Part shown: piece after piece, positions 24,070 through 43,302 of the stretch | Numbering within the stretch: position 1 is the first letter of the stretch | Layout: each line of letters starts with the position of its first letter | Position numbers and translations under genes: made by a program | Notes under the pieces: generated by a model | The model's database searches: none | Told to the model about the DNA's origin: nothing | Seen by the model: the letters and a program-made list of their open reading frames with translations, nothing else | Origin: Shewanella pealeana ATCC 700345 | GTDB taxonomy: Bacteria > Pseudomonadota > Gammaproteobacteria > Enterobacterales > Shewanellaceae | Direction of reading: 5' to 3' | Length of the DNA stretch: 64,000 nucleotides | Assembly: GCF_000018285.1 (NCBI RefSeq) | Contig: NC_009901.1 | Coordinates: 4,897,001 to 4,961,000 of the forward strand

Positions 24070-24912
24070 ATGTTAAGTTATCGTCACGGCTACCACGCAG
24101 GCAATTATGCCGATGTTCTCAAGCACGCTATTTTGCTGCAAGTGCTCAAACTAATGCACAAAAAAGATAAGCCTATGGCTTATATCGACACCCATGCGGG
24201 TGCGGGCGGCTATGCGTTAACCGATGAGTTTTCAAAGAAAACCGGCGAATACCTAGATGGCGTAGCCAGACTGTGGGAAAGAACCGACCTGCCTGAATCA
24301 CTGGTGCAGTACATCGAAGATGTGAAGCATTTTAACCAAGGTAAAGCAGAACTCGAGTTTTACCCTGGCTCACCTGCTTTTGTTGATATGAACATGCGTG
24401 AAAAAGACCGCATGGTACTGCACGAGCTACACGGCACTGACTTTTTGACCTTAAACGAGCAGTTTACGGGCGATCGTCACGTGCGCGTCATCAAGGGTGA
24501 TGGCCTTAAAGGTCTGATTGCTGCCGTACCACCACTTGAGCGTCGTGGCGTGATTTTAATTGACCCTAGTTACGAAATTAAAACCGACTATCAAGATGTG
24601 GCTAAAGCCATTATTAAAGCCCATAAACGCTTCTCTACTGGCGTATTTATGTTGTGGTATCCGGTTGTAGATCGTGACCAAACTGAAGGCATGCTTAAGC
24701 TATTAGCCGAAAGCGGCATCAAGAATCAGTTACGTATCGAACAAGCGATTAAGCCTGATAGCAATGAGTTTGGCATGACAGCAGCAGGTCTGTGGATCAT
24801 TAACCCACCTTGGCAGTTAGACACCACAGCCAAAGAGATGCTGGACTATTTAGAGCGTCGCATTGGCCATAACGGCGGCAAGACAACCGTTAGACAGGAA
24901 GTGGCGGAATAA
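24070..24912 (+). CDS. rlmJ: 23S rRNA (adenine2030-N6)-methyltransferase RlmJ
   Basis: A 280-residue SAM-dependent methyltransferase. It starts MLSYRHGYHAGNYADVLKHA, a family hallmark, followed by MAYIDTHAGAGGYAL (SAM site) and the catalytic ILIDPSYEIKTDY (DPPY-like) near 160, then YPVVDR. Its length matches E. coli RlmJ (280). Start 56 bases after the regulator gene. A mosaic hairpin-repeat block begins immediately after the stop codon. Confidence 0.95.
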   Translation: MLSYRHGYHAGNYADVLKHAILLQVLKLMHKKDKPMAYIDTHAGAGGYALTDEFSKKTGEYLDGVARLWERTDLPESLVQYIEDVKHFNQGKAELEFYPGSPAFVDMNMREKDRMVLHELHGTDFLTLNEQFTGDRHVRVIKGDGLKGLIAAVPPLERRGVILIDPSYEIKTDYQDVAKAIIKAHKRFSTGVFMLWYPVVDRDQTEGMLKLLAESGIKNQLRIEQAIKPDSNEFGMTAAGLWIINPPWQLDTTAKEMLDYLERRIGHNGGKTTVRQEVAE

Positions 24913-24913
24913 A

Positions 24914-25088
24914 AGATAGATCCTAGGGACGAGGTTCTAGGTCCTAGGAAAAGCCAAGATTTAAAAGTGCCCTATCTTTTAGCTTTTCCTAGTAGCCAAC
25001 TTGTTGGTGTCCTAGTAGGTGCGCAGCACCGTCCTCGCAGTGAGCCTGCGAACGTCCTAGAAACGAGCCTGCGAGTGCCCTAGCACCT
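24914..25088. repeat. Mosaic triloop-hairpin repeat, block A1
   Basis: Begins AAAGATAGATCCTAGG and includes the pieces CTAGGTCCTAGG, AGTAGCCAACTTGTTGG, GTAGGTGCGCAGCACC and CCTGCGAACGTCCTAG. The hairpins CCAAC-TTG-TTGG and GGTGC-GCA-GCACC each have a three-base loop. Only one orientation half of the larger element is fully present. The same phrases recur in blocks at 25405-25880, 33706-34012, 35860-36105 and 36716-37022. Confidence 0.8.
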
Positions 25089-25093
25089 AATGC

Positions 25094-25351
25094 TTATAAA
25101 CACTCTTCATCATCGTTAATTTGACGAGCGAAGACTCCAAAAATAGCAGATAAAATTCCGACTTCGACATCTTTATTATTCTGAGTTGATGCAGCCGAAC
25201 TCCCGCCTATTGATTCCCTCTGCTCTCTTTGCTGTTCGTTACCATGTGCACCGCTAACAAAGTCACAGCCCGCATTTGCCACTGAGCTTGATGAACAGCC
25301 CATGCTGCTCAATGTCAGCAAAGCCAGCCACACAACCAAAATCCGTTTCAT
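25094..25351 (-). CDS. Small predicted lipoprotein
   Basis: An 85-residue protein with a lipoprotein signal peptide (MKRILVVWLALLTLSSMGC, lipobox cysteine 19). The mature part is short, Ser/Gln/Asn-rich and polar, with VEVGILSAIFGVFARQIN near the end; no family is recognised. A ribosome-binding-like AGGAA precedes the start. It is flanked on both sides by mosaic repeat blocks. Function unknown. Confidence 0.6.
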   Translation of the reverse strand: MKRILVVWLALLTLSSMGCSSSSVANAGCDFVSGAHGNEQQREQRESIGGSSAASTQNNKDVEVGILSAIFGVFARQINDDEECL

Positions 25352-25404
25352 ATTATTCCTTTCTAATTAGTCCATTATTAAACATTAACACTTTCCAACT
25401 GTTA

Positions 25405-25880
25405 GATTCTAGGTCCGAATAAAATTAAGACGAGAACGGGCTTCGCCCTGCGAGACGTGACTACGTCACTTCGAGAGCGCGACCTTGTCGCTTCTAGGAA
25501 AGGCTGAGACGAAAAGGCTTAAAAGATAGGTCCTAGTTGCTAGGGAAAAGCTAAGAAAGTAACAGCCGGATAAGGCCGGAAAAGCATAAAAGCAAAAGAT
25601 AACAATGTGCTCGATATTGATTGTATAGCAGGACGAAGTCCGCCCTAGCCGCGAAGCATCCTAGCAGCGAGCTTGCGAGTGCCCTATCTTATATGTTGGC
25701 GTCCTCGCAGGTGCCTAGTACCGTCCTAGCAGTGAGCCTGCGAACGTCCTAGAAACGAGCTTGCGAGTGCCCTATCTTATATGTTGGCGTCCTCGTAGGT
25801 GCGTAGCACCGTCCTAGCAGTGAGCCTGCGAACGTCCTAGTACCTAGGACCTATCAGGACGAAGTCCGTCCTCGTACCTT
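25405..25880. repeat. Mosaic triloop-hairpin repeat, block A2 (longest)
   Basis: Contains GGGC-TTC-GCCC (25438-25448), GTGAC-TAC-GTCAC (25457-25469) and GCGAC-CTT-GTCGC (25479-25491), then an inverted half with repeated CTTGCGAGTGCCCTATCTTA and GTGAGCCTGCGAACGTCC phrases and two GGACGAAGTCC hairpins. Internal units are themselves repeated. It fills the gap between the lipoprotein and LysR genes and contains no plausible gene. Confidence 0.85.
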
Positions 25881-25888
25881 CTTTATTA

Positions 25889-26767
25889 TCATTGCAACAC
25901 CGAATGTAACTCATCAAACAACCAGTGCATTATCGGGCCGATTTGCTTGTCACGACGATTAACTACCCCCATCTCCACCAGCAAAGGCTCGGTAATATAT
26001 TCTGTGGAAAGCTCACAAAGGTCATCAATATACCACTCAGATTTAGCCACGTGTTCTGGCACTAACGCCCAGCCCACGCCCTGCAAAACTAGCGCGACAA
26101 TGTAATAGTAACTATCGATATACCAATAATTTGCCGATAAAGGCGGCGTCTGTGATTGCCCGGTAATGTCGCAAATAGCTAACTGCCGATATTGCATCAA
26201 CAGCTCTAAAGTCGGCGCTGGGGTCGATGCTAATGGATGGGATGGCGCGACCACTAAGCTCTGTTTAAACTGGCCAATCGACATGAAATCTAGGGAGTCT
26301 GGTAGCAATGTGTTGCTATGGAACATAATGCCAATATCGGCGCGCCCGGCATCCACCCAAGCGGCAATATCCTCTTGCGATCCATTAATGATAGTGAGTT
26401 TAAGCAATGGGAATTGCGTCGATATACGCTGAAATAACGCTTCAAATGCAGTAACCGGTACCGCTTCATCCATAGCCACGGTAAGGGTGATCTCCTCACC
26501 TGAGGTGACGGTCATAGCACGCGCATTAAGGCGCTGACACTGAGCCAGAACCGATTGCGCCTCAATAAACATCTCTTCGCCGAGTGAAGTGAGTACAGGA
26601 AGTCTTGCGCTGCGGTCAAATAACTCAAAACCTAAGCCCGCTTCTAAGTTACTAATCGCGGTACTTATACGCGATTGAGCTTTCCCCATCTTTCTGGCTG
26701 CCGCCGAAAATGAGCCTAGCTTTACCGAATTTACAAATGCATTGAGCTCATCAATCGTCCAATTCAT
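25889..26767 (-). CDS. LysR-family transcriptional regulator
   Basis: The start MNWTIDELNAFVNSVKLGSF is chosen because LysR proteins begin just before the helix-turn-helix; a frame from 26794 would add nine residues. Residues 5-65 form the winged helix (FSAAARKMGKAQSRISTAISNLEAGLGFELFDRSARLPVLT) and about 85-290 the substrate-binding domain. It is divergent from a MATE exporter and may control it, the usual LysR arrangement. The inter-gene region holds a 13-bp tandem repeat that begins only a few bases upstream of this start. Confidence 0.9.
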   Translation of the reverse strand: MNWTIDELNAFVNSVKLGSFSAAARKMGKAQSRISTAISNLEAGLGFELFDRSARLPVLTSLGEEMFIEAQSVLAQCQRLNARAMTVTSGEEITLTVAMDEAVPVTAFEALFQRISTQFPLLKLTIINGSQEDIAAWVDAGRADIGIMFHSNTLLPDSLDFMSIGQFKQSLVVAPSHPLASTPAPTLELLMQYRQLAICDITGQSQTPPLSANYWYIDSYYYIVALVLQGVGWALVPEHVAKSEWYIDDLCELSTEYITEPLLVEMGVVNRRDKQIGPIMHWLFDELHSVLQ

Positions 26768-26774
26768 AGCCAAC

Positions 26775-26915
26775 CTATTTAAACACCTACTCAAACAGCC
26801 ATCTTAAACAGGTGGCTCATACAACTACCTTAAACAGCTACCTTAAACAGCTATCTTAAACAGCTACCTTAAACTGCTATCTTAAACTGCTATCTTAAAC
26901 TGCTATCTTAAACAG
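26775..26915. repeat. 13-bp tandem repeat in the LysR-MATE divergent region
   Basis: Seven exact-length units of CTAYCTTAAACWG run from 26825 to 26915. Degenerate units extend leftwards to 26775 (CTATTTAAACAC, CTACTCAAACAG, CCATCTTAAACAG). The array occupies the presumed promoter region of both genes. Confidence 0.9.
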
Positions 26916-27016
26916 CCATGTCCAAACCTTATCTCAAAAACAGATAGTAACTAACTTTATTCAATCTCAAATACAGAGTAACTTGCCAAGCTTTATTGTT
27001 CAATATTGATATCCCC

Positions 27017-28414
27017 ATGTTAGATCCAAGCATAGAAAACACACAGACTCAGTCAATTAGCCGTACCTTTTGGCGTTACACTCTGCCTGCCATTGCCGCC
27101 ATGTTAGTTAACGGTTTATACCAAATCGTTGACGGTATTTTTATTGGCCATTACATCGGCTTTGAAGGACTCGCAGCTATCAATATGGCCTGGCCTGTGA
27201 TCTACTTTATGGTTGGTTTTGGCATCATGGTCGGCATGGGTAGTGGCAGCTTGCTATCGATTCAACGGGGTAAAGGCGATACTCGCGCGGCACCGACGAT
27301 ATTGACCAGCAGCTTAGTACTCATGCTTAGTCTAGCCATAATCTCTACCTCGATTTTAGTCATCTGCAGCGACTTTTTTCTTGAGGCTCAGGGCGGTGCG
27401 GGCAACACCTTGGTGATGGCGCAAGAGTATATTAGCGTATTCACTTGGGGAACTGCGATCACTGTGATTGCTTCAGCCTTGCCGTTGCTCATTCGTAACG
27501 ATGAGAGCCCCAATATCGCTACCGGTTTAATGGTATTAGGCGCCTTTATCAATATTGCACTCGACTATCTATTGATAGGCGTATTTGACTTCGGCTTGCT
27601 TGGCGCTTCGATTGCCACCATTAGTGCACAGGCGACTGTCTGTGTTTTAGGTCTTATCTACTTTTGCTCTCGATTTAGCAGCATTAACTGGTCGGCAAAA
27701 TTTAGTTGGTTTAACGCCTCTTTTGCTCAACAAATCACGCTGTTAGGCTCATCAAGCCTATTTATGTATCTGTATACCAGCTTTGTTTTTGCACTGCATA
27801 ACCGACTCTTTACAGAGTATGGTACACCGCTAACCGTAGGCGCCTTCGCCATTGTTGGCTACCTGATGGTGCTATATTACTTAGTCGCCGAAGGTGTGGC
27901 CGAGGGTATGCAGCCTCCTGTTAGTTATTACTACGGCGCCGAGCAACATGAAAACATCAACAAGATGCTTAAGCTGTCGGTAAAGGTGACTCTGATTGCG
28001 GGTACCAGCTGGGTATTACTGCTAAACCTAATGCCAGAGACCATGGTTGGACTATTCAACAATGATGATCCCTTGCTAATTGCAACCGCAATTGATGGTA
28101 TCAAAATGCATCTGTTTGCTATGCCGTTAGATGGCTTTATTGCACTTTCGTCTGTGTACTTTATGGCGACTAACCAAGGCGTTAAAGCGTTAGTCATCGC
28201 CTGTGGCAATATGCTAATCCAGCTGCCATTCCTATATTTCTTACCTAAGGTTATGGGAGTCGAAGGTGTGTGGATGGCGATGCCGCTCTCCAACATAGCA
28301 CTGTGCCTTATTGTGGCGCCTATGGTTTGGTTTGATGTTAAGTCGAGAAAGAAGCAATCAAGAGCGCAGCAAGATAATCCGTTAACTATCGATACAGCGG
28401 CAATCGTAAGTTAA
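27017..28414 (+). CDS. MATE-family multidrug/metabolite efflux transporter
   Basis: An inner-membrane cation-coupled exporter with about 12 helices. The ATG at 27017 (MLDPSIENTQTQSISRTFWR) is preferred; a TTG at 26996 would add seven residues, and neither has a strong ribosome binding site. Family blocks: LPAIAAMLVNGLYQIVDGIF, GFGIMVGMGSGSLLSIQRGK, and in the second half LVAEGVAEGMQPPVSYYYGA. This is the DinF/NorM-like branch close to Vibrio VmrA. A fossil copy of its last 50 bases lies about 110 bases downstream. Confidence 0.88.
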   Translation: MLDPSIENTQTQSISRTFWRYTLPAIAAMLVNGLYQIVDGIFIGHYIGFEGLAAINMAWPVIYFMVGFGIMVGMGSGSLLSIQRGKGDTRAAPTILTSSLVLMLSLAIISTSILVICSDFFLEAQGGAGNTLVMAQEYISVFTWGTAITVIASALPLLIRNDESPNIATGLMVLGAFINIALDYLLIGVFDFGLLGASIATISAQATVCVLGLIYFCSRFSSINWSAKFSWFNASFAQQITLLGSSSLFMYLYTSFVFALHNRLFTEYGTPLTVGAFAIVGYLMVLYYLVAEGVAEGMQPPVSYYYGAEQHENINKMLKLSVKVTLIAGTSWVLLLNLMPETMVGLFNNDDPLLIATAIDGIKMHLFAMPLDGFIALSSVYFMATNQGVKALVIACGNMLIQLPFLYFLPKVMGVEGVWMAMPLSNIALCLIVAPMVWFDVKSRKKQSRAQQDNPLTIDTAAIVS

Positions 28415-28431
28415 GCCTTGCAGCTAAGTCT

Positions 28432-28570
28432 TTAAGCCTTGCGATAACGTTTGAGCAAGATCTGCACCCGCTCAACATAGGCTTGGGTCTCTGTGAGTAC
28501 TAATGGAGTGCGGACGCCTTAATATCGCCCAGTACTTTATCTTTATGGTTTGATTTGACGTTAAAACCAG
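28432..28570. pseudogene. Fossil duplicate of the MATE/transglycosylase 3' ends
   Basis: On the minus strand 28432-28500 encodes ETQAYVERVQILLKRYRKA and a stop, identical in protein to the C-terminus of the downstream transglycosylase but with synonymous differences. On the plus strand 28520-28570 resembles the last coding bases of the MATE gene, with ATGGTTTGATTTGACGTTAA replacing the functional sequence and a stop in place of Trp. The arrangement is what remains if a tandem duplication of the convergent pair lost its middle. Confidence 0.85.
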
Positions 28571-28573
28571 AAG

Positions 28574-29317
28574 TTAAGCCTTGCGGTAGCGCTTGAGCAA
28601 AATCTGTACCCGTTCGACGTAAGCTTGGGTCTCTGGGTACGGCGGGATGCCTTTATACTGCTCTACTCGGGAGGCTCCGGCGTTATAGGCGGCGCAGGCC
28701 AAGGCAATATCACCATTAAAGCGTTTCAGTAGCTGAGCCAGATAACGGCTACCCGCCAAGATGTTTTGCTCTGGATGGAAGGCATCACGCACCCCCAGCT
28801 CATTGGCCGTAGCGGGCATCAGCTGCATTAGACCCTGCGCCCCAGTTTTAGATAGCGCCTTGGGCTTAAAAGCCGATTCGGCATGAATAACGGCCCGAAT
28901 GAGTGCAGGATCCAGCCGATATGTTCTGGCCGCAGTGGCGATCAGCTGCTGATATTGTGAGGTAAACAGAGGGATTGATTTCCAATTGATATTCGACTCA
29001 GGTTTGCAGGCGTAGCAGTCAAATAATAACACCTGATAATGCCCCTCTTGCGGCGCTTGATCGCTAAAAACCAAGACTCCATCGGCGGTGAGGTAGTGGT
29101 AAACCTTTTCTCCTTGTTCAACACTAGCTCCCAAGCTCTGAGTCCCGCTAGTTAAGCTATGATTAGTAACGGCTTGACCTAACACACTCTTATTCGATGG
29201 TTTGGCAACAAAATGTGGCTTACTCGTCTCTGCCGCCATGGCTGTAGGAGTTACAACTGCAGAAGTCACAGCAGTAGACAAGCACAGTAAACTAAACAGG
29301 GGTGCTCGCTTCATCAT
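28574..29317 (-). CDS. Lytic transglycosylase (SLT domain) family protein
   Basis: A 247-residue secreted protein with a signal peptide at about 1-28 (ending MAAET). Residues about 65-100 resemble a DUF4124-like segment (YHYLTADGVLVFSDQAP). Residues about 125-240 form a goose-lysozyme-like SLT domain: LIRAVIHAESAFKPKALSKT with the catalytic Glu, GAQGLMQLMPATANELG, NILAGSRYLAQLLKRF and ALACAAYNAGASRVEQY. It would cleave the glycan strands of peptidoglycan in the periplasm. Its start overlaps the end of the DUF3137 gene by four bases, so it belongs to the lemA operon. Confidence 0.9.
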   Translation of the reverse strand: MMKRAPLFSLLCLSTAVTSAVVTPTAMAAETSKPHFVAKPSNKSVLGQAVTNHSLTSGTQSLGASVEQGEKVYHYLTADGVLVFSDQAPQEGHYQVLLFDCYACKPESNINWKSIPLFTSQYQQLIATAARTYRLDPALIRAVIHAESAFKPKALSKTGAQGLMQLMPATANELGVRDAFHPEQNILAGSRYLAQLLKRFNGDIALACAAYNAGASRVEQYKGIPPYPETQAYVERVQILLKRYRKA

Positions 29318-30336
29318 AATCCGGTCGAACTATCCAATTGCAGTACATCAACGATAGCAAATAACTGCTTCATCTCTTTGTTTATCTGACTAAATTCATA
29401 TTCGAATGTTGCCGCCTTAAATATCGACGCCATCTCGAAGCGATTCTCTTTACTACCAAGCATGATCAGTAATTTATTGCGATAGAAAGCACATTGGATC
29501 TTGTTGCCAAAACTGGCAGATAGCTCCTGCAAGCGCTCCATAAAAGTCACAGTTAACAGATAACGCGCCTCTATTTGATCGGTCGAGAACACATCAAACT
29601 GCTTCTCAAAGATAGGATCCTCCAGCTTCACCCGTTCAAGGCCTTTAAAGGAGTCCGAGAGGAAATTAACCAAGCCTCCGCGGTTCTTCACCACCACGGT
29701 ATGGCCACGAAAATCTTTATGGCTACTGAGCTCAATCATCACCCCTTTAAAGACGGTAACCGTGTCGGTCGACTTGTCACGCTTAACCTGTTTAGTTAGC
29801 TGCAACTCATTGATAGCGATCTCAATATTTTTGTAGGTACCCTGCACATAATCGTCAAAGCTCGCAGATTCATAATAAGGTAGCAACTTGGATGCCTTCA
29901 GCGCACTAAGGCTCATCTTATGCTCTTTGCAAAAGATAAAATCATGACCAAAGTACTTAAAAATAAGTGGATAAATCTTCTGTTTCACATCGGTTTTATA
30001 ATGCTTAATAGGCCTAAATACCCACCAAGCAAACGGCAATGTCAGCAAGACTAAACCGATAAGATAAACCATCAGCGGATCGGAAAAATTCAGATATGGC
30101 ATAAACATAAATGCCAAGATCGCGATACCAATATAGATGGCAGCACACAGGTACAAACGCTGACGACACGCTTTTAGACTCGCAACACGGGCATTTTCAA
30201 ACTTGCTGGTAAGTGGCTCAAGATGCTGCTGATAATACTGCTTAAATTCATCTATCTCAGATGGCGCGGCAACGAGGTGATCAGTGTTACGTATAGGCTT
30301 TATCGATGCGCCAAACAAGAAGCTAAATAGATTCAT
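29314..30336 (-). CDS. DUF3137-family membrane protein
   Basis: 340 residues with two adjacent membrane helices near 55-75 and 85-105 (YLCAAIYIGIAILAFMFMPY and LMVYLIGLVLLTLPFAWWVF) and a large cytosolic domain. The downstream domain (YESASFDDYVQGTYKNIEIA, FKGVMIELSSHKDFRGHTVV) is the form seen in DUF3137 proteins, which are commonly encoded next to lemA. Biochemical function is unknown. It is translationally coupled to the transglycosylase gene downstream. Confidence 0.8.
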   Translation of the reverse strand: MNLFSFLFGASIKPIRNTDHLVAAPSEIDEFKQYYQQHLEPLTSKFENARVASLKACRQRLYLCAAIYIGIAILAFMFMPYLNFSDPLMVYLIGLVLLTLPFAWWVFRPIKHYKTDVKQKIYPLIFKYFGHDFIFCKEHKMSLSALKASKLLPYYESASFDDYVQGTYKNIEIAINELQLTKQVKRDKSTDTVTVFKGVMIELSSHKDFRGHTVVVKNRGGLVNFLSDSFKGLERVKLEDPIFEKQFDVFSTDQIEARYLLTVTFMERLQELSASFGNKIQCAFYRNKLLIMLGSKENRFEMASIFKAATFEYEFSQINKEMKQLFAIVDVLQLDSSTGL

Positions 30337-30423
30337 ATTATTGCTAACTCACTCAAGTGCAGTTTAGTAACGAGTCATTACCGCAATAATCAGTATTACG
30401 GTAATTGAGCGAATACATTTAAG

Positions 30424-30993
30424 CTATTTTAGATAATCGGCAGCATCGACAGGTGCTTTAGACGCCTCGTCGGCTTCATAGAAAGGCATCACCTTCACAC
30501 TCGCCATAGAGGCTATGATAGAGCCAGGGAAGATCTCAACCGCGGTATTCAGCTCAGATACTGCCGAGTTGTAGAAACGACGCGCAGCAGACAGCTGAGC
30601 CTCGACTTCGTTGTAGGTCTGCATCGCTTGCAGCATGGTATTGTCTGACTTCAGCTCAGGATAGTTTTCAACACTTACCATCAGCTGTGACATCTTCTGA
30701 TTCAGTTTTTCTGATACCTGAAGATGAGCTTTAACTGAACCTGAGTCACCATCGTCATACCCCTTAACAGCCAAAGTTCTTAATTCGGTGATCTCGGTCA
30801 GCAGCGACTTCTCATGGTCCATGTACTTCTGTGCAATCTTGAGGATATTCGGTACTAGGTTAGACCGCTTCTTAAGCTGAACGTCTATTCCCGATAACGC
30901 TTCACGCCCCGCATTACGCTTCTTGATTAAACTGACATACCAAAGATAGGCAATAATCACCACTAAGCCTGATCCCAACAATAACCCTTCCAT
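30424..30993 (-). CDS. lemA: LemA family protein
   Basis: 189 residues: one N-terminal membrane helix (about 5-22), then the LemA coiled-coil helical bundle with the signature ALSGIDVQLKKRSNLVPNIL near 35-54 and YPELKSDNTMLQAMQTYNEV, followed by RRFYNSAVSELNTAVEIFPG and a short proline-acid tail. LemA proteins are envelope proteins of unclear role. First gene of a three-gene operon with DUF3137 and a transglycosylase, which hints at cell-envelope work. Confidence 0.92.
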   Translation of the reverse strand: MEGLLLGSGLVVIIAYLWYVSLIKKRNAGREALSGIDVQLKKRSNLVPNILKIAQKYMDHEKSLLTEITELRTLAVKGYDDGDSGSVKAHLQVSEKLNQKMSQLMVSVENYPELKSDNTMLQAMQTYNEVEAQLSAARRFYNSAVSELNTAVEIFPGSIIASMASVKVMPFYEADEASKAPVDAADYLK

Positions 30994-31530
30994 CTGTGTG
31001 TCCTATTGTTCTTTTTATTTAAATGGCTAGCGCTAGTCTCTATCCAGTAGACTAAAGCCAAAAAACGATTACGCTATTCTTATATAACTCATACTGTTAC
31101 TTATTTAAGCAACGAAATCCAGCCTCAACACAGATAATCAGCCCCAGTCACGGCGTTACTTTTTAATCAGCGTAGCAAAAAAGTGGCAAGAACATCGAAT
31201 AAAACCTTGAGCAAACAATGACTAATCGAACTCTTGTTAAATAAACTCGCTAAACAGCATAAAAATACAACTAGCGTTCACTATTTGCTCACCACAAAAA
31301 ATAATAGCCCTGTATATCAACAACTAAAATTATGCATCACGGTGTGATTTTTTGAGCTAAGTAGAATTCACCCTAAACAGTTTCCGCCATAAAACCCCTA
31401 AACTAGTCAAACTTATTCACCCTTTTAGTTAACTTTGTCATTAATCATAAGTTTGTAGAGTTTTCTGTATCACCTAGTCTATTCCTTGCTTCTCTCCAGC
31501 TTTCTCGGGATTAGCTTTGCTCATTATTCA

Positions 31531-31635
31531 TTCAGCTTAGATACAGTATCCCCTAGTTATAGCTATCACATCCCTTAAGGAAACGTTCGACCCAATCATC
31601 CCCTTCGGACTCATTTAATATGAGTCCTTTTTTTT
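31531..31635 (+). ncRNA. Candidate small RNA, copy 1 of a tandem pair
   Basis: TTCAGCTTAGATACAG, then CCCCTAGTTATAG, AAGGAAACG and a perfect hairpin GGACTCAT/ATGAGTCC followed by T8 (31607-31635). The same elements in the same order recur about 205 bases downstream. CTAGTTATAG may be the -10 region, which would make the transcript about 65-70 nt. No reading frame of note. Confidence 0.55.
31607..31635 (+). terminator. Intrinsic terminator of sRNA candidate 1
   Basis: Perfect eight-base stem with loop TTAAT and eight T residues. Confidence 0.9.
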
Positions 31636-31736
31636 GGCCGAAAATTGTAAATTACCCATTAATATTAGTGCATTGGATTAATCAAAAGCTGGATTCAATA
31701 AAGGTTAACAAGAGTTAATCGAACTCCTTTTCACCG

Positions 31737-31837
31737 TTCAGCTTTGATACAGCTAACCCTAGTTATAGTAATCCCAATCCCAACGGAAACTGTTATTCAA
31801 TCCCTTTTGGACTCATCCTATATGAGTCCTTTTTTTT
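31737..31837 (+). ncRNA. Candidate small RNA, copy 2 of a tandem pair
   Basis: TTCAGCTTTGATACAG, ACCCTAGTTATAG, AACGGAAACTG and hairpin GGACTCAT/ATGAGTCC with T8 (31809-31837). It differs from copy 1 in loop and spacer bases but keeps every block, including the complete stem and a GGAAAC segment. Conservation of separate blocks with drift between them suggests two functional transcripts rather than a recent duplication. Confidence 0.55.
31809..31837 (+). terminator. Intrinsic terminator of sRNA candidate 2
   Basis: Same eight-base stem as in copy 1, loop CCTAT, followed by T8. Confidence 0.9.
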
Positions 31838-31997
31838 GCCAAAAATTCACTGGTCATTTCACAACAAGAACCCTGCAAAGCCTTACAGTTACTCAGGAGT
31901 CGTCAATATAGCTGATTAATAAAAGAGCCAAATTTAAGGTTTAATTAATTTTTCAGACCCATCATGCTACATTGGATTAATAAATATTTAATGCAAT

Positions 31998-32012
31998 TGG
32001 CACAAAAGTAGC
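31998..32012 (+). promoter_or_regulatory. Possible sigma-54 promoter for the first AbgT gene
   Basis: TGGCACAAAAGTAGC has the GG-N10-GC spacing of -24/-12 promoters and lies 73 bases upstream of the ATG. The second AbgT copy does not retain it. One motif only, so low confidence. Confidence 0.35.
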
Positions 32013-32084
32013 CCCACATTAGCTGTCACTCCAGCGTACCAATAACAAAAACAACAAAACGAAAGCATATTGAAGGAAGACACT

Positions 32085-33704
32085 ATGAGCAGTAATGACG
32101 GCGATAGCTTGCCTCTATCTAGCCAAGCCCCCTTAGATCCCAGTAACAAGCCTGGTGGCTTGTTTGTCCGCTTCCTAAACGTAGTTGAAAGACTCGGTAA
32201 CTTACTACCTCACCCCATCACTCTTTTCGCGCTATTTTGTGCCGCTGTTGTGGTTATCAGTGGCATCGCCGGTTATTTTGAATTAACTGTAGTCGACCCA
32301 AGACCCGAAGGTGCATCGGGCCGCAGCGCCGATGGTCTAATTCATGTAGTCAGCTTAATGAATGCCGAAGGCCTCCGGATGATCGTCTCCAACTTGGTGA
32401 CCAACTTTACTGGCTTTACCCCATTGGGCACAGTGCTTGTCGCCTTACTCGGTGTGGGTATCGCCGATCGCTCGGGCTTGCTGTCTGCCGCTATGCGCTT
32501 ATTAGTCATGGGCGCTTCAAAGCGCTTAGTCACGCTAACTCTAGTATTTGCAGGTATCGTTTCTAATACTGCATCTGAGCTAGGCTACGTGGTGCTTATC
32601 CCAATGGCAGCGATGATCTTCCACTCCTTGGGTCGCCATCCGCTTGCAGGTCTAGCCGCTGCATTTGCCGGTGTATCCGGCGGCTATAGCGCTAACTTAC
32701 TACTCGGCACCGTTGATCCACTGTTATCTGGGATCACCGAAGCTGCAGCGCAGATGATCGATCCTGACTACCTTGTTGGCCCAGAAGTAAACTGGTACTT
32801 CATGTTTGTCTCCACCTTTTTAATCACCTTCTTAGGTGCATTCGTTACCGAGAAAATCGTCGAACCTAAGTTGGGCAAATACGATGCTAGCGAAGCGGCG
32901 ATTGACCTTAGTGAACAGAAGATGGATACGGTTAGCGCACTGGAGAAAAAGGGCCTAAAAATCGCAGGCCTTGCGGTATTAGTGATGTCGGCAGTGCTTG
33001 CTTTAACTATTATTCCTGAGGGTGCGCCACTTCGAAACCAAGAAACTGGCTTAGTAGCTGGCTCTCCTTTCTTAAAAGGGATTGTGGCCTTTATCTTTGT
33101 TTGCTTTGCTATTCCAGGCCTAATTTATGGCCGTGTTGTGGGTAGCATGAAACGCGATATCGATGTCATCAACGCCATGTCACACAGCATGAGTAGCATG
33201 GGCATGTATATCGTCTTGGTATTCTTTGCTTCGCAGTTTGTCGCTTTCTTTAAGTGGACCAACTTAGGGGCGGTACTGGCAGTATCTGGCGCAGATGCAC
33301 TTAATGCTATTGGCTTAACTGGGCCGCTAGTATTCGTACTGTTCATCATGATGTGTGGCTTTATTAACTTGATGCTAGGTAGTGCTTCAGCGCAGTGGGC
33401 TGTAACCGCACCTATCTTCGTACCTATGTTGATGTTGGTGGGTTACGCACCCGAAACCATTCAGGCGGCATACCGAATTGGTGACTCTGTAACAAACCTA
33501 ATTACGCCAATGATGAGTTACTTCGGCCTTATCCTGGCCGTCGCCTCGCAGTATAAGAAGAATCTAGGTATAGGCACATTGGTTGCGACCATGCTGCCAT
33601 ACTCAATCGTGTTCTTTATCGGTTGGACCTGCTTCTTTTTCATCTGGGTATTTGTGATTGGTTTACCCGTTGGCCCGGGTGCAGCAACTTATTATACGCC
33701 TTAA
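32085..33704 (+). CDS. AbgT-family transporter, copy 1
   Basis: An inner-membrane transporter of 539 residues from MSSNDGDSLPLSSQAPLDPS; GAAGGAAG precedes this ATG (an upstream TTG at 32070 is unlikely). About 11-13 helices. AbgT-family segments include VVERLGNLLPHPITLFALFC, LGVGIADRSGLLSAAMRLLV, AGVSGGYSANLLLGTVDPLL, and near the end GSASAQWAVTAPIFVPMLML and YRIGDSVTNLITPMMSYFGL. E. coli AbgT imports p-aminobenzoyl-glutamate, while Neisseria/Alcanivorax homologues can export sulfonamides; either activity is possible. A near-identical copy follows. Confidence 0.9.
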   Translation: MSSNDGDSLPLSSQAPLDPSNKPGGLFVRFLNVVERLGNLLPHPITLFALFCAAVVVISGIAGYFELTVVDPRPEGASGRSADGLIHVVSLMNAEGLRMIVSNLVTNFTGFTPLGTVLVALLGVGIADRSGLLSAAMRLLVMGASKRLVTLTLVFAGIVSNTASELGYVVLIPMAAMIFHSLGRHPLAGLAAAFAGVSGGYSANLLLGTVDPLLSGITEAAAQMIDPDYLVGPEVNWYFMFVSTFLITFLGAFVTEKIVEPKLGKYDASEAAIDLSEQKMDTVSALEKKGLKIAGLAVLVMSAVLALTIIPEGAPLRNQETGLVAGSPFLKGIVAFIFVCFAIPGLIYGRVVGSMKRDIDVINAMSHSMSSMGMYIVLVFFASQFVAFFKWTNLGAVLAVSGADALNAIGLTGPLVFVLFIMMCGFINLMLGSASAQWAVTAPIFVPMLMLVGYAPETIQAAYRIGDSVTNLITPMMSYFGLILAVASQYKKNLGIGTLVATMLPYSIVFFIGWTCFFFIWVFVIGLPVGPGAATYYTP

Positions 33705-33705
33705 A

Positions 33706-34012
33706 AAAAGAAGGACCTAGGTGTTAAGAAGAGCTAAGATAGGGCGGGCTTCGCCCTGCTAGGACGCGACTTCGTCACTTCGAGAGCGCGACGTTGTCGC
33801 TTCTAGGAAAGGCTAAAACGGAAAGCAAAAGAAGTACAACTATCATCTTTAATCTTTTCCTAGTAGCCAACTTGTTGGCGTCCTCGCAGTGAGCGTGCGA
33901 ACGTCCTAGAAACGAGCTTGCGAGTGCTCTGTCTTTTATCTTTTCCTAGTAGCCAGCTTGTTGGCGTCCTAGCAGTGAGCCTGCGAACGCCCTAGGTCCT
34001 ATCCCCTAATGA
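33706..34012. repeat. Mosaic triloop-hairpin repeat, block B
   Basis: Starts directly after the AbgT stop (AAGAAGGACCTAGGTG), with GGGC-TTC-GCCC at 33746-33756, a GCGAC-TTC-GTCAC near-hairpin, GCGAC-GTT-GTCGC, then the inverted half with two AGTAGCCAACTTGTTGG-like phrases and GTGAGCCTGCGAAC. The first 100 bases nearly match block C after the second AbgT copy, so this half was duplicated with the gene. Confidence 0.85.
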
Positions 34013-34238
34013 CCTTTTTCCTACAAAGCCGTGCTGCTGCTCACTATTGCAGCTTTTGCTTTATTAATAAGCGATTTTTTTAAGGTTCAATTAATTTTGC
34101 TTATCCATGATGCCAGCAGCTTCGATTAAACAGAAGTCAGCATCTTAGCGCCAATCAAACGCTATTCCTGCCGCAGATATACCCAAAAGCAATACCAAAA
34201 TAATTAAAATAATAACAATATCTTGTAAGGAAAAACCC

Positions 34239-35858
34239 ATGAGCAGCAATAACGGAGATCGCCTGCATCAGTCAGGCGGTGCCTCTTTAGATCCTAATAA
34301 TCAAGTCAGTGGTTGGTTTGTTCGTTTCCTCAACATCGTAGAAAGGCTCGGAAACCTGTTACCTCACCCAATTACGCTATTTGCAATTTTTTGTGCCGCC
34401 GTTGTCGTTATCAGTGGCATAGCCGGCTATTTTGAATTAAGTGTTGTCGACCCTAGACCCGAAGGTGCAGCGGGGCGCAGCAGTGACGGTATGATCCATG
34501 TTGTCAGCCTGATGAATGCTGAAGGCCTGCGGATGATAGTCTCCAACTTAGTCACTAACTTCACCGGCTTTACTCCGCTAGGAACGGTACTTGTCGCCTT
34601 ACTTGGTGTCGGTATTGCTGAGCGTTCAGGATTGCTATCAGCAGCAATGCGCTCACTGGTTATGGGAACATCGAAGCGTTTAGTGACTCTCACTATCGTG
34701 TTTGCAGGTATCGTTTCAAATACTGCTGCGGAGCTTGGATACGTAGTACTTATCCCTATGGCGGCGATGATTTTCCATTCGCTAGGTCGTCATCCGCTTG
34801 CAGGACTCGCGGCAGCTTTTGCTGGTGTGTCTGGTGGCTACAGCGCAAACTTGCTATTAGGCACAGTCGACCCATTATTATCAGGGATAACCGAAGCCGC
34901 TGCGCAAATGATTGACCCAGACTACACAGTTGGCCCAGAAGCAAACTGGTACTTTATGTTTGCATCCACCTTCATCATTACCTTTTTAGGCGCCTTCGTT
35001 ACCGAGAAAATTGTTGAGCCTAAACTGGGGAAATATGATCCGAGTCAGGCAGCCAATGATCTTGGCGAAGCCAAAATGGAGCAGATTAGCGCTATTGAAA
35101 AGCGTGGTCTAAAAGCCGCAGGCATCGCTATTTTAGTCATGTCTGTGCTATTAGCACTGACAGTGGTACCAGAAGGTGCGCCTCTTAGAGATCCTAAAAC
35201 CGGATTAGTCTCAGGCTCGCCATTTCTAAAAGGCATCGTTGCCTTTATCTTTATCTGCTTTGCCGTTCCAGGATTGGTTTATGGCCGTATCGTTGGCACC
35301 ATGAAGCGCGATATCGATGTGATTAATGCTATGTCACACAGCATGAGTAGCATGGGCATGTACATTGTTTTGGTATTCTTTGCCTCACAATTTGTCGCTT
35401 TCTTTACCTGGACTAATTTAGGTTCGGTATTTGCGGTTGCAGGCGCTGATGCATTACAAGCAATTGGCCTAACAGGCCCCTTGGTTTTCGTTGTGTTTAT
35501 CGCTATGTGCGGCTTTATTAACTTAATGCTCGGTAGTGCATCGGCGCAATGGGCAGTCACCGCACCTGTATTCGTACCTATGTTAATGCTAGTGGGTTAT
35601 GCCCCGGAAACCATTCAGGCTGCTTATCGAATCGGCGACTCCGTCACTAATCTAATTACGCCAATGATGAGCTATTTTGGTCTTATTTTGGCCGTCGCGT
35701 CGCAATACAATAAGAACCTAGGTATTGGCACCTTAATCGCGACTATGTTGCCATACACCATAGTATTCTTTATCGGTTGGACCAGCTTCTTCTTTATCTG
35801 GGTGTTCGGATTCGGATTACCTGTCGGGCCGGGGTCGGCAACTTATTATACGCCTTAA
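34239..35858 (+). CDS. AbgT-family transporter, copy 2
   Basis: 539 residues, the same length as copy 1 and alike along the whole chain (for instance VSLMNAEGLRMIVSNLVTNF and KRDIDVINAMSHSMSSMGMY are identical). Differences cluster in the N-terminal 20 residues, the loop after GKYD and a few membrane positions. TAAGGAAA precedes the ATG. Upstream, TTAAGGTTYAATTAATTTT is shared with copy 1, so the duplicated unit includes part of the leader. Two copies may differ in expression or substrate. Confidence 0.9.
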   Translation: MSSNNGDRLHQSGGASLDPNNQVSGWFVRFLNIVERLGNLLPHPITLFAIFCAAVVVISGIAGYFELSVVDPRPEGAAGRSSDGMIHVVSLMNAEGLRMIVSNLVTNFTGFTPLGTVLVALLGVGIAERSGLLSAAMRSLVMGTSKRLVTLTIVFAGIVSNTAAELGYVVLIPMAAMIFHSLGRHPLAGLAAAFAGVSGGYSANLLLGTVDPLLSGITEAAAQMIDPDYTVGPEANWYFMFASTFIITFLGAFVTEKIVEPKLGKYDPSQAANDLGEAKMEQISAIEKRGLKAAGIAILVMSVLLALTVVPEGAPLRDPKTGLVSGSPFLKGIVAFIFICFAVPGLVYGRIVGTMKRDIDVINAMSHSMSSMGMYIVLVFFASQFVAFFTWTNLGSVFAVAGADALQAIGLTGPLVFVVFIAMCGFINLMLGSASAQWAVTAPVFVPMLMLVGYAPETIQAAYRIGDSVTNLITPMMSYFGLILAVASQYNKNLGIGTLIATMLPYTIVFFIGWTSFFFIWVFGFGLPVGPGSATYYTP

Positions 35859-35859
35859 A

Positions 35860-36105
35860 AAAGAAGGGCCTAGGTGTTAAGAAGAGCTAAGATAGGGCGG
35901 GCTTCGCCCTTCGAGGACGTGACTGCGTCACTTCGAGAGCGCGACGCTGTCGCTTCTAGAAAAAGATAGGTCCTAGGTGCGAGGTTCTAGGACCTAGGAA
36001 AAGCAACAATCAAAAGATATTAGCTTTTCCTAGCAGCCAACTTGTTGGTGCCCTAGCAGTGAGCCTGCGAACGTCCTAGCTCCTAACCTATCTTTTACTA
36101 GCTTT
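35860..36105. repeat. Mosaic triloop-hairpin repeat, block C
   Basis: Left half GGGC-TTC-GCCC, GTGAC-TGC-GTCAC and GCGAC-GCT-GTCGC; centre AGGTCCTAGG with CTAGGACCTAGG; right half AGCTTTTCCTAGCAGCC, CCAAC-TTG-TTGG and GTGAGCCTGCGAACG. Overall an imperfect large palindrome. It ends about 55 bases before yfcE. Confidence 0.85.
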
Positions 36106-36158
36106 ATCGACAAACGAAGCTATATTGACGATCTGACTCATCATTCTAGCCATAGTCC

Positions 36159-36716
36159 ATGAAACTTTTTATTGCCTCCGATCTACACGGCTCTGTTATA
36201 GCCACTCAAGCCATGCTGACTCGCTTTGAGCAGTCTGGGGCTCAATACCTTATTCTGCTCGGAGACATGCTTAATCACGGCCCGCGTAACGCCATCCCCG
36301 ACGGCTACAATCCCACGGCCTTAGCTGAAACGCTGAACCAGTATGCCGATAAGATTATTGCCGTTCGCGGTAACTGCGACAGCGAAGTAGACCAAATGCT
36401 ACTGCAATTTCCGATCACCGCGAGCTTTGCTCAAGTATTGATGCCACAAATGCGTTTATTCCTCACCCACGGCCATATTTATAATCCCGATAACCTGCCA
36501 CCGCTACAAGCTGGTGATGCACTAGTCTATGGTCATACCCACATTGCAGTGGCTGAATATCGTGACGATATTTTATTGTTCAACCCGGGTTCAACCACCA
36601 TTCCACGTAATGGTGCTCGAGCTTCTTACGGCTTAATCACTGACACAGAATGTCAGGTACGCGCCATAGACAACGATGAGCTACTACTCAGCTGTCCGAT
36701 ACGTCATACAAGATAG
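36159..36716 (+). CDS. yfcE: Metallophosphoesterase YfcE family
   Basis: A 185-residue cytosolic phosphodiesterase. All calcineurin-like motifs are present: IASDLHGS (D-x-H), LLGDMLNHGPRN (GD), AVRGNCDSEVD (GNCD), LFLTHGHIY (GH) and VYGHTHIAV (GHTH), with NPGSTTIPRNG typical of YfcE/MJ0936. The family hydrolyses phosphodiesters in a Mn2+-dependent way; the natural substrate is not settled. Single gene, surrounded by two mosaic repeat blocks. Confidence 0.93.
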   Translation: MKLFIASDLHGSVIATQAMLTRFEQSGAQYLILLGDMLNHGPRNAIPDGYNPTALAETLNQYADKIIAVRGNCDSEVDQMLLQFPITASFAQVLMPQMRLFLTHGHIYNPDNLPPLQAGDALVYGHTHIAVAEYRDDILLFNPGSTTIPRNGARASYGLITDTECQVRAIDNDELLLSCPIRHTR

Positions 36717-37022
36717 GTTCGAGGGTCTAGGGAATGCTAAGACGAGGACGGGCTTCGCCCTGCGAGGGCGTGACTGCGTCACTTCGAGAAAGGATTAAAA
36801 GATAGGTCCTAGGTGCGAGGCTCTAGGACCTAGGAAAAGCCAAGATTTAAAAGAAACAAGCAACAGATTCAGGCTCCATGAATAGGCTTTGTCTTTGCTC
36901 TTAAGCTATTAGCCTTTCCTAGTAGCCAACTTGTTGGCGTCCTCGCAGGTGCGCAGCACCGCCCTAGAACCTATCAGGACGAAGTCCGTCCTAGAAGTGA
37001 GCCTGCGAGCGTCCTATCTTTT
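36716..37022. repeat. Mosaic triloop-hairpin repeat, block D
   Basis: GGGC-TTC-GCCC, GTGAC-TGC-GTCAC, a CTAGGTGCGAGGCTCTAGGA centre, then CCTAGTAGCCAACTTGTTGG, GGTGC-GCA-GCACC and GGACGAAGTCC hairpins. It ends just before the terminator of the acrAB-like operon. Confidence 0.85.
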
Positions 37023-37028
37023 AACAAC

Positions 37029-37056
37029 AAAAAGCCCAGCATTTGCTGGGCTTTTT
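37029..37056. terminator. Bidirectional intrinsic terminator after the RND operon
   Basis: GCCCAGC and GCTGGGC around ATTT, with five A before and five T after. It serves the efflux operon on the minus strand. Confidence 0.92.
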
Positions 37057-37083
37057 AGTGTCTAGCGCGTTAGCGATACAAGA

Positions 37084-40000
37084 TTATTTGTTCGCTTTAG
37101 CTGCTTTGGCTTCAGCCTTTATTGCTTTCGCGGCATCTCGCTCGCGCTTGCTGAACATACGCTCAACAATCACGAAGAAGATTGGGATAAAGAAGATCCC
37201 CATAAAGGTCGAGCTCATCATACCGCCCAGTACCGCTGTACCGATGGCGTTCTGGCTACCAGAACCTACACCGCTACTGATGGCTAGTGGCACAACACCT
37301 AGACCGAATGCTAAAGACGTCATTAAGATTGGACGTAAACGCACTCGAACCGCGTGTAGTGTGGCTTCAACAAGACCTGCGCCTTTCTCGTAGAATTCTT
37401 TAGCAAATTCCACAATCAAGATGGCGTTCTTGGTTGCTAGACCCACAGTCGTCAATAGACCTACCTGGAAGAATACGTCGTTTGGTAAACCACGACCATT
37501 CATCGCAATCAAGGCACCGATAATACCCAGAGGCACAACGAGTACTACCGCAAATGGTACTGACCAGCTCTCGTATAGTGCTGCAAGTACTAGGAATACC
37601 ACCACAATCGACAAGGCATATAGCATTGGCGCCTGATTACCCGATAGACGTTCTTCATAAGAAAGACCGTTCCATTCGATACCAAATCCTGGTGGTAGCT
37701 TCTTAGCCATAGCCTCGATGTCATCCATCGCTGCACCTGTACTGTAACCTGGTGCTGTACCACCTTGGATATTCATAGCTGGCAAACCACCAAAACGCTC
37801 TAGACGCGGTGAACCATATTGCCAACTACCCGATGCAAATGCCGAGAAAGGTACCATTTCGCCTTTGTCGTTACGCACATACCAAGAGTCGAGATCTTCT
37901 GGCTGCATACGGTATTCAGCTTCACCTTGCACGTAAACTTTCTTCACACGACCACGGTCGATAAAGTCATTCACGTAATTACCACCCCAAGCTGTACCCA
38001 GTACGCTATTGACTGAGTCAATATCAACGCCTAATGCACGTAACTTACCGTGATCGATATGAACTTGATAAAGCGGTGCATCTTCCTGACCATTTGGACG
38101 AACGCCCACTAGGTTAGGGTTCTGTGCAGCCATACCCAGCAACATGTTACGTGCTTCAACAAGCTTGGCATGGCCTTGGCCATTCTTATCCTGCAAGTAG
38201 AAGTCGAAACCGTTAGCCGTACCCAGCTCGATAACTGCTGGCGGTACAAAGGCGAATACGAAGGCTTCTTTCATCCCCATAAACATACCCATGGCACGGT
38301 TAGCAACTGACTGTACGTCTTGACCCGGTTCGCTACGCTCAGCCCAGTCTTTAAGGCCGACGAACGCAATACCCATGTTTTGACCATTACCCGCAAAACT
38401 GAAACCCGATACGCTAAATACTGACTTAACGTTCTCGCCTTCTTCATTCAAGTAAAAATCAGTAACACGCTCAAGTACTGCCTTAGTTTCTTGCTGCGTC
38501 GAGTTCACAGGCAAAATAGCCTGAGTGAACAAGATACCTTGGTCTTCGTCTGGTAAGAATGCGGTAGGCATACGCATGAAGATCCAACCCACTGCAACCG
38601 TAATTGCTAGGTAAACCATCATAGTACGGCCAGTACGCTTAATCATTGCCGCAACACTTGACTCATAACGAGACGTTAATGCATCAAACTTACGGTTAAA
38701 CCAACCAAAGAAACCCGTTTTTGCGTGGCTTTCACCTTTTGCAATCGGCTTCAACATGGTCGCACAAAGTGCTGGAGTTAGAATGATCGCCACCATTACA
38801 GACAGCGCCATTGCAGACACAATCGTAATCGAGAACTGACGATAAATAACACCCGTTGAACCAGACATAAATGCCATTGGAACAAATACCGCTGAAAGCG
38901 TTAAACCAATACCCACTAGCGCACCAGTGATTTGGTCCATCGATTTCTTAGTCGCTTCAACGGGACTCAGTCCCTCTTCTTGCATTACACGCTCAACGTT
39001 CTCCACTACAACAATCGCGTCATCCACCAGAAGACCAATTGCCAGCACCATAGCGAACATGGTTAGCGTGTTAATCGAGAAGCCTGCAGCGGCCAAAATA
39101 GCAAATGTACCCAGTAGTACTACTGGCACCGCAATCGTTGGGATTAGCGTTGCACGGAAGTTCTGCAGGAACAGATACATAATTAAAAATACTAAAACAA
39201 CCGCTTCCAGCAGGGTATGTACAACGCCTTCAATTGATTTCTCAACGAATGGAGTTGTGTCGTAGGGATAAACCACTTCCATCCCATCAGGGAAGAATGG
39301 CTTCATCTCATTGATTTTTGCACGCACGCCTTCGGCTGTTGCCAATGCGTTAGCACCGGTTGCTAACTGAATACCAACACCCGCAGCAGCTTTACCGTTA
39401 TAAAACGACTCAACCGCATAGCTTTCTGCACCCAGTTCAACACGAGCCACATCTTCAAGGAATACTTTGGCGCCTGAAGTGTCAGCTTTGATGATGATCT
39501 TTTTAAATTGATCCGCTGTCTGTAGACGACTCTGAGCCGATACCGTTGCGTTAAGCTCTTGGCCTGCAACTGATGGTGCACCACCTAACTGGCCTGCTGA
39601 CACCTGAGCATTTTGCTCTCTAATTGAAGAGATAATGTCTTGGCTGGTCAGGTTATATTGAGTCAGTTTTAGTGGGTCTAGCCATATACGCATCGCATAT
39701 TGTGCGCCAAATAGCTCGATAGTACCCACACCAGGAACACGACTTAGCGGATCCTGAATATTAGAACCTACGTAATCGGCGATATCGTTTTTATCAAGTG
39801 AACCGTCTTGTGATACGAAAGCCGCTACCATCAAGAAACCCGCACTCGACTTACTTACGTTAACACCTTGCGCCTGAACTTCTTGCGGTAACAGCGGCAT
39901 TGCAAGCTGTAGCTTGTTCTGCACCTGTACCTGCGCGATATCAGGATCGGCTTCAGCATTAAACGTTAAGGTAATTTGCGCATTACCAAAGCTATCACTG

Positions 40001-42654: not shown

Positions 42655-43302
42655 ATGGATCTGTATTACCACCCACTGGCTCGCCAGTCTCAAAAAACAC
42701 TGATTGCCCTCTATGAAAAACAGGCAAGCTTTAGCCCGCATATCATAGATCTGAGCAATGCCTTTAGCAGACGTAGCTTTGGCCAGATTAGCACTTCAAC
42801 CCAACTTCCTCTGTTACAGACCCGCACCGGGGAGTCGTTTAACGACGCCACGATTATTATCGAGTATCTGGATAGCTATATAAGCTCTGGCACTCAGCTA
42901 ATTCCAATCGATAAACATCAAGCCTTACACGTTAGGCTCTACGACAGATTAAGCGACAATCAATTAGATAAAGAGATAGATGCTTGGTTGCTTGCGATTA
43001 ATACCAGCAATAACCAGATCCACATCAAGCAGTTAGAAAGAGCCGTGCTAAGCACCTTAGCGTATTTTGATAAGCGTCTGGCCAATAACCATTGGGTTTG
43101 TGGCGACAGCTTCACCCTCGCCGATTGTGCATTTATCCCCTGCCTTAAAGCACTCGAGAGTCGGCTGCAACTATTAGATTACGAACATATAGGTCGCTAC
43201 TGGATCCAGGCAAAACTCCGGGGCGCTGTCAGTCAAGTTATCGAAGAGATAGAGCTCACCCTTGCCACCATAGGCCAGAGTGAGCTAGTAGTGCACACTT
43301 AG
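42655..43302 (+). CDS. Glutathione S-transferase family protein
   Basis: 215 residues from MDLYYHPLARQSQKTLIALY. This ATG is preferred because the thioredoxin-like fold begins exactly here; a GTG at 42583 would add 24 unrelated residues. The N-domain has TSTQLPLLQTRTGESFNDAT (cis-Pro and Glu/Ser glutathione contacts) and the C-domain is all-helical with GDSFTLADCAFIPCL, the N-capping box. The last 13 residues, including LATIGQSELVVHT, are encoded by the first unit of a tandem repeat, so its C-terminus was shaped by repeat expansion. Confidence 0.85.
   Translation: MDLYYHPLARQSQKTLIALYEKQASFSPHIIDLSNAFSRRSFGQISTSTQLPLLQTRTGESFNDATIIIEYLDSYISSGTQLIPIDKHQALHVRLYDRLSDNQLDKEIDAWLLAINTSNNQIHIKQLERAVLSTLAYFDKRLANNHWVCGDSFTLADCAFIPCLKALESRLQLLDYEHIGRYWIQAKLRGAVSQVIEEIELTLATIGQSELVVHT

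Follow-up and report, generated by a model that had tools for sequence, protein, structure and literature searches.

A CTAG-tagged family of mosaic hairpin repeats behind genes of Shewanella pealeana

Five intergenic blocks of short hairpins in the chromosome of Shewanella pealeana ATCC 700345 share one frame while the hairpins set in it differ, and the question that they raise is what kind of element they are, and what keeps the stems paired while the content changes. The blocks lie in a window of 64,000 nucleotides (positions 4897001-4961000 of the single 5,174,581-base chromosome, labelled G000 in the comparisons; coordinates below are those of the window). All five were read directly, after which the positions of their hairpins were mapped. 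The explanation to which we lean, on balance, is that the blocks are copies of a non-coding, CTAG-tagged Shewanella family that lies in intergenic DNA 3' of genes and resembles repetitive extragenic palindromes (REPs) and bacterial interspersed mosaic elements (BIMEs), its hairpins being kept by selection and reshuffled by slippage and recombination. The blocks and their hairpins (hereafter beads, of classes X, Y and Z in left halves and P, Q, R and S in right halves) are as follows.

24914-25088, no strand: block 1, site A1, between convergent genes, beginning 1 base past the stop codon of the gene at 24070-24912; right-half beads P 24995-25008, Q 25018-25030, R 25040-25053 and S 25063-25076.
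25405-25880, no strand: block 2, site A2.
33706-34012, no strand: block 3, site B, beginning 1 base past the stop codon of an AbgT-family transporter gene (32070-33704); beads X, a Z-like bead (33766-33778) and Z, then P-R-S and P-R.
35860-36105, no strand: block 4, site C, beginning 1 base past the stop codon of the paralogous transporter gene (34239-35858); beads X-Y-Z, then P-R.
36710-37022, no strand: block 5, site D, overlapping the stop codon of a YfcE-type phosphodiesterase gene, which the repeat itself provides at 36714-36716; its far end lies before a terminator hairpin beside a convergent RND pump gene; beads X-Y, then P-Q-X-R.

The transporter genes at 32070-33704 and 34239-35858 are tandem paralogues with a block 3' of each; the gene is apparently single-copy in G016, and also in G032 as far as the locus of that genome extends.

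The repeat unit has the form CTAG-NA-hairpin-GYC-CTAG. Read tag first, CTAG (or CTCG) is followed by two bases ending in A, the hairpin, GYC or GAC, and the next CTAG. Hairpin cores are mainly 7, 11, 12, 13 or 14 nt long. The 7-nt cores include GCGAAGC, GCGCAGC, GCGGAGC and GCGTAGC, thus all four bases at the variable loop position, and other variants are rare; cores of 11 and 13 nt have stems of 4-5 bp and most often a C-GNA-G centre, the commonest loop, present in 21 of 33 cores of odd length that have three or more outer pairs. The 14-nt cores are of two types: in one the stem is plain, as in GCCAA-CTTG-TTGGC, and in the other it contains a pair of neighbouring G.A mismatches, as in GTGAGC-NN-GCGAAC. 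Farther out than the beads come heptamer arrays, (CCTAGGN)n, and arms rich in purines that end with AAGATAGG or AAGAAGG. The element consists of two inverted halves with the beads in largely fixed slots between (CCTAGGN)n ends. Examples of the beads are:

25651-25657, plus strand: the smallest bead, a minihairpin, GC-GAA-GC.
36750-36760, minus strand: an 11-nt bead, GGGC-GAA-GCCC, with a C(GAA)G triloop.
36948-36960, plus strand: a 13-nt bead, GGTGC-GCA-GCACC, with a C(GCA)G triloop.
36997-37010, plus strand: a 14-nt bead with the tandem G.A mismatch, GTGAGC-CT-GCGAGC.

The smallest unit, GC-GNA-GC, has the sequence of a known, extra-stable DNA minihairpin (PMC4686876; this source, PMC3733652 and PMC8266576 are cited throughout from the parts of their text available to us). 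DNA with a GNA or GNNA loop and at least two G-C pairs forms extraordinarily stable minihairpins, and GCGAAGC melts at 78 C (PMC4686876). In another genome (G056, locus L120, G056:C16:60500-80000), hairpin beads of 7 and 13 nt alternate in a 45-bp tandem array broken by an assembly N run.

That the stems are compensated, as an earlier note on this window had proposed from a few loops and arms, was borne out by a comparison in which cores were picked by their flanks alone, pairing not being required, and the null came from exchanging right halves between cores of equal length. At least four outer pairs were present in 40 of 173 distinct cores, while 1000 trials of half-swapping averaged 7.9 such cores and never exceeded 16. 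In a larger set, from which cores containing CTAG were removed before counting, 180 of the 235 stem cells in 47 distinct 13-nt cores were Watson-Crick pairs (mean 117, maximum 144 in 2000 swaps), figures that are not probabilities, here as in the other sets, because the cores share descent. Three pair types occur at each of positions 2, 3 and 4 of the 13-nt cores. Likewise, 89 of 124 cells were paired in 31 distinct 11-nt cores (swap mean 68, maximum 80), and the 14-nt set, which mixes the two types, had 146 of 276 paired (mean 99, maximum 120). A stricter version left 19 distinct arm pairs, ten of them perfectly paired and nine with one or two departures. The compensated stems thus back the suggestion that hairpin structure is under selection or is preserved by some process.

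The five blocks are members of a family and not a local curiosity, in line with the earlier note. A blastn search with block 2 returned 40 matches in its own genome, CCTAGGNCCTAGG has 33 sites there (reversed control, 0), and the pattern CTAGNAN{1,4}CGNAGN{1,4}GNCCTNG has 31 (29 among the matches listed; control, 0). Combined, these places form at least 49 clusters in the 5.17-Mb chromosome, a lower bound. Within the genus, 22 of 60 genomes have matches to block 2, some of them weak, and 21 of 60 the bead pattern; in an order-wide sample, matches occur in 25 of 295 genomes, some of them due to chance, since the control gives matches too. Of the 31 stretches in the GTDB species collection that contain CTAGCAGCGAAGCGNCCTAG, 27 are from Shewanella, two from Vibrio and one each from Pseudomaricurvus and Sanguibacter. 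In Vibrio albus (L140 7150-7700), a terminator has a (GACTAGA)n heptamer array and one CTAG bead on its two sides; judged without an ORF (open reading frame) call, the place seems to be 3' of a gene, and the grammar is apparently the same in this other genus. A further sequence, CTAGGAAAGTCGAAGTACGACCTAG, recurs in genomes of family f21 and was set aside as different from the CTAG bead family.

The arrangement of the beads is less free than had been thought. With bead classes defined by patterns written after the blocks had been read, order was counted in 110 strings of adjacent beads, and the right-half classes P, Q, R and S kept their order in all 42 adjacent pairs of different classes (42:0), as did the left-half classes Z, Y and X in all 15 (15:0). 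The order counts indicate that the main beads are slots, possibly empty or altered, rather than the interchangeable parts that the earlier note had seen in them; X and the minihairpin are freer and recur in several places. Freely swapped beads are therefore rejected for the main classes. Changes in length were collected as one-sided gaps of at least 5 nt with good flanks in pairwise alignments of 56 called blocks of at least 100 bp. Among 281 such gaps, 35 are of 7 nt, 41 of 14 nt and 86 of 20-23 nt, and these 162 correspond to one or two heptamers or one bead.

Comparison with other species separates the sites from what fills them. All five sites are filled in G053 too. In a comparison of 11 blocks, ten of which have an ortholog in the set, the ortholog was the best match in none of the ten: block 5 (site D) matched site A1 of G053 with 235 bits and its own ortholog at site D with 79, and block 2 (site A2) matched site B of G053 with 194 bits and its own ortholog with 27. 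Since the sites are common to G053 and the ortholog is never the best match, content appears to move between fixed sites. What different sites have in common extends to the element's unstructured centre, so whole interiors, not just common hairpins, stand at different sites in different species. Among the 30 of 60 genomes that were read at site D, the site is filled in seven (G000, G053, G016, G032, G059, G021 and, in a merged form, G027), and G010 retains a remnant. Among the fetched loci, 28 length differences emerged when empty sites were sought to set against filled ones; in most of these cases the other genome still had a sizeable remainder. The close pair G019 and G021 (89% identity over ~3 kb) has a near-identical block at one locus (L085/L086) and differing content at two others, with no clean insertion footprint at the compared loci. 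The copying mechanism that the earlier note had offered beside selection is supported both by the 162 gaps of heptamer or bead length and by content that differs at orthologous sites and matches other sites.

A possible course of events can be put together from these observations. The linkers of 7-9 bp would act as direct repeats and the hairpins as stimulants of slippage, and through both together replication slippage would add or drop beads. The content of a block would be replaced by homologous recombination or gene conversion between scattered copies. Behind genes, the hairpins would most likely serve as 3'-end structures of the mRNA, as substitutes for a terminator, or as extrudable DNA hairpins, and because of such a role selection would keep the stems pairable. 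Their function is suggested by the position and structure of the blocks. How a wholly new site is seeded lies outside what this explanation accounts for.

Several results weigh against the explanation that we prefer. The minihairpin (m) has no fixed place: relative to Y it comes first 24 times and second 6 times, relative to X first 6 times and second 13 times, and relative to R first 5 times and second 3 times. X occurs in both orders with R or S (before 27, after 2). As many as 119 of the 281 gaps have lengths other than 7, 14 or 20-23 nt and direct repeats of at least 4 flank only 58, the gaps moreover not being independent events and at least one of the 56 called blocks being false. The 12-nt cores, with 31 of 85 cells paired, are not significantly above the swaps (mean 22, maximum 39); the 7-nt cores and the outermost pair are nearly invariant, and the variation among the 7-nt cores is too small for a covariation test. 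For the smallest bead, the energy model gives no special stability as DNA or as RNA, and the minihairpin argument consequently rests on PMC4686876 and the conserved loop. Blocks 3 and 4 match each other with 181 bits, a similarity that may come from duplication of the preceding genes, since both follow duplicated genes. The element is absent at site D from 22 of the 30 genomes read, and the comparisons yielded no clean empty/filled pair from which a target-site duplication could be seen to be present or absent. Finally, a scan for terminators from 24800 to 37200 found 17, compared with 11.5 +/- 3.7 in shuffles, with three in a block, all in block 2. A terminator role is unsupported by that scan, and a simple terminator reading was rejected as the consensus scan lacked enrichment.

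Selection may act on RNA only, the blocks being structured 3' untranslated regions whose hairpins block exonucleases or end transcription, and this is the alternative that survives best, possible although doubtful. It agrees with the position of the blocks behind genes: of the 49 blocks called in those parts of G000 that were fetched, with rough ORF calling, 24 lie between tandem genes, 21 between convergent genes and one between divergent genes, while two fall in ORFs (false calls) and one at an edge, and a stop codon is at most 30 bases away in 30 of the 46 intergenic calls. At sites B and C, where G059 lacks the element, and at C in G032, which lacks it as well, an intrinsic terminator stands directly behind the gene, whereas it is absent in the species with these two sites filled. 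The RNA folds of blocks 4 and 5 (z = -2.67 and -3.99) also fit selection on RNA. On the other hand, the DNA fold of block 4 (z = -5.46) is further from its shuffles than the RNA fold, C(GNA)G loops are a signature of DNA minihairpins, the inverted halves give a transcript with both orientations, and the whole window has no Rfam match at the gathering score.

Alternatively, the blocks could be REPIN-like non-autonomous elements cut at the CTAG tag by a REP-associated tyrosine transposase (RAYT) of the Y1 type, much as GTAG is the cutting site of RAYTs. In favour, the members of the family are scattered over intergenic DNA, the succession of a tetranucleotide, two bases, a hairpin and a 3-nt tail parallels GTAG-1 and GTAG-2 REPs (PMC3733652), and a REP transposase of Stenotrophomonas still cuts a CTAG mutant with reduced activity (PMC8266576). 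Nevertheless, the linked RAYT gene that the earlier note had proposed to look for was not found. G000 has one Y1_Tnp gene, which scores 71.1 as a REP-associated transposase (cut-off 80); about 400 bases on each side of it are free of beads, and two CTAG clusters listed in its 9-kb locus were judged by eye not to be beads. REPs of the GTAGGTCGGCATTTATGCCGTC type flank the Y1 genes of G014 and G019 and fit the description of GTAG-1/2 in PMC3733652, with a degenerate bead-like stretch in G014 about 250 bases beyond these REPs; none of the three Y1 genes read has CTAG beads as flanking repeats. Y1 genes occur in 13 of the 22 genomes with block matches (some weak) and in 20 of the 38 without, and nine of the 22, including G053, G059 and G025, lack a Y1_Tnp match. 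With no beads beside its own Y1 gene, GTAG-REPs at two others and no Y1 association over 60 genomes, a dedicated RAYT is unlikely at present, although one may since have been lost; as the likely present driver it was rejected, and we consider the REPIN-like reading as a whole improbable. As an observation in its own right, the Y1 genes at L079 2480-3340 and L058 7100-7910, in two Shewanella genomes, are frames of 152-153 aa with inverted GTAG-REPs on both sides, an arrangement that is REPtron-like.

Mutation alone, with template switching in quasi-palindromes copying one arm onto the other and no selection, would give double changes and perfect short stems, and it fits an array prone to slippage; tandem 16-bp minihairpin units in G214 and in G261 and G139 (both of another family) resemble such plain copying. 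Against this, variation falls on the arms, the closing pair and loop remaining for the most part C-GNA-G (the 21 of 33 odd-length paired cores above), and in many copies the mismatches of the G.A stems persist uncorrected, which makes this reading unlikely too. An origin as a miniature inverted-repeat transposable element (MITE) of a DDE-type insertion sequence, with terminal inverted repeats of the AAGATAGG/AAGAAGG type, is very improbable: the outer ends are inverted and similar in several blocks, yet a search for the outer motif met it at just 10 of 30 right ends of blocks and 6 of 30 left ends, sites B and C show no clear target duplication, bead order and heptamers are not MITE features, and no match was found among plasmid records (two blocks) or phage records (one block; three blocks tried).

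The family to which we assign the blocks is close to known systems without coinciding with any of them. GTAG-1 and GTAG-2 REPs, reported in S. pealeana, S. halifaxensis, S. woodyi, S. sediminis and S. piezotolerans, are likewise extragenic palindromes behind a tetranucleotide, with two unpaired bases between tag and stem and a 3-nt tail, and have covarying stems and a position mostly 3' of genes (PMC3733652). In contrast, the present family has a CTAG tag, stems of 2-6 bp, mostly under the 5-13 bp range of PMC3733652, a mostly GNA loop, head-to-tail strings in largely fixed order, heptamer arrays and no associated RAYT that we could find. An unpaired GTAG (or GYAG/GTRG) end was not seen, the recurring linker before a bead being CTAG or CTCG followed by NA; in TA and CA beads, where the letters GTAG or GCAG overlap the tag, a degenerate GTAG reading may apply. 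REPs of the GTAG kind are also present separately, some of them embedded in the blocks. BIMEs are also composite intergenic mosaics with units in both orientations (PMC8266576), whereas here there are more unit types, ordered slots and a building unit that is not clearly a GTAG REP. With CGTC REPs, for which no transposase is reported either in the available text of PMC3733652, the family shares the GTC after the final C of many beads; CGTC REPs have stems of 8-9 bp and loops of 4-5 nt, while here stems of 2-6 bp usually close a 3-nt loop and include the C of CGTC as a paired base, which sets the blocks apart from that class. The d(GCGNAGC) minihairpins are identical to the smallest bead, with all four N found; in PMC4686876 they are synthetic DNA and a component of an aptamer, and here a genomic repeat unit. 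Among the titles and abstract openings listed in literature searches on Shewanella or on bacterial palindromic repeats, none describes a CTAG-framed element, and the main text of the nearest paper, PMC3733652, as available, lacks the word CTAG. The earlier note's remark that it knew of no named element with this layout agrees with this for the CTAG frame, while the mosaic REP/BIME kind itself was already known.

Two further tandem arrays lie in the window. At 26774-26938, on the 5' side of a LysR-type regulator gene, a 13-bp unit (CTATCTTAAACAG) is repeated in 11 copies and contains CCTATCTT, which is like the outer motif of the blocks; at 43257-43537, a 38-bp unit in 7.3 copies includes CTAGTAGTG and a repeated CCACCATAGGCC. 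Similar intrinsic terminators at 31607-31627 and 31809-31829, 200 bases apart, suggest a small duplication.

What marks this family is its own tag, loop, organisation and largely fixed order. A more far-reaching conclusion, which we put forward tentatively, is that it forms a third, CTAG-tagged class of REP-like elements whose unit is an extra-stable minihairpin of single-stranded DNA. Its fixed 3'-intergenic sites would outlast the ages of species while host replication and recombination rewrite their content, no transposase of its own being involved, and the hairpins, extruded or on the lagging strand, would act as DNA, driving the copying and marking the ends of genes. If this is true, the REP/BIME class would extend beyond the GTAG and CGTC tags to a repeat family made of exceptionally stable DNA minihairpins. 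The family would also be a natural test case for whether arrays of hairpins need a dedicated transposase to spread and evolve. Its sites stay fixed while the content turns over in units that can be counted, so sequencing close strains or evolved lines might tell slippage, gene conversion and template switching apart.

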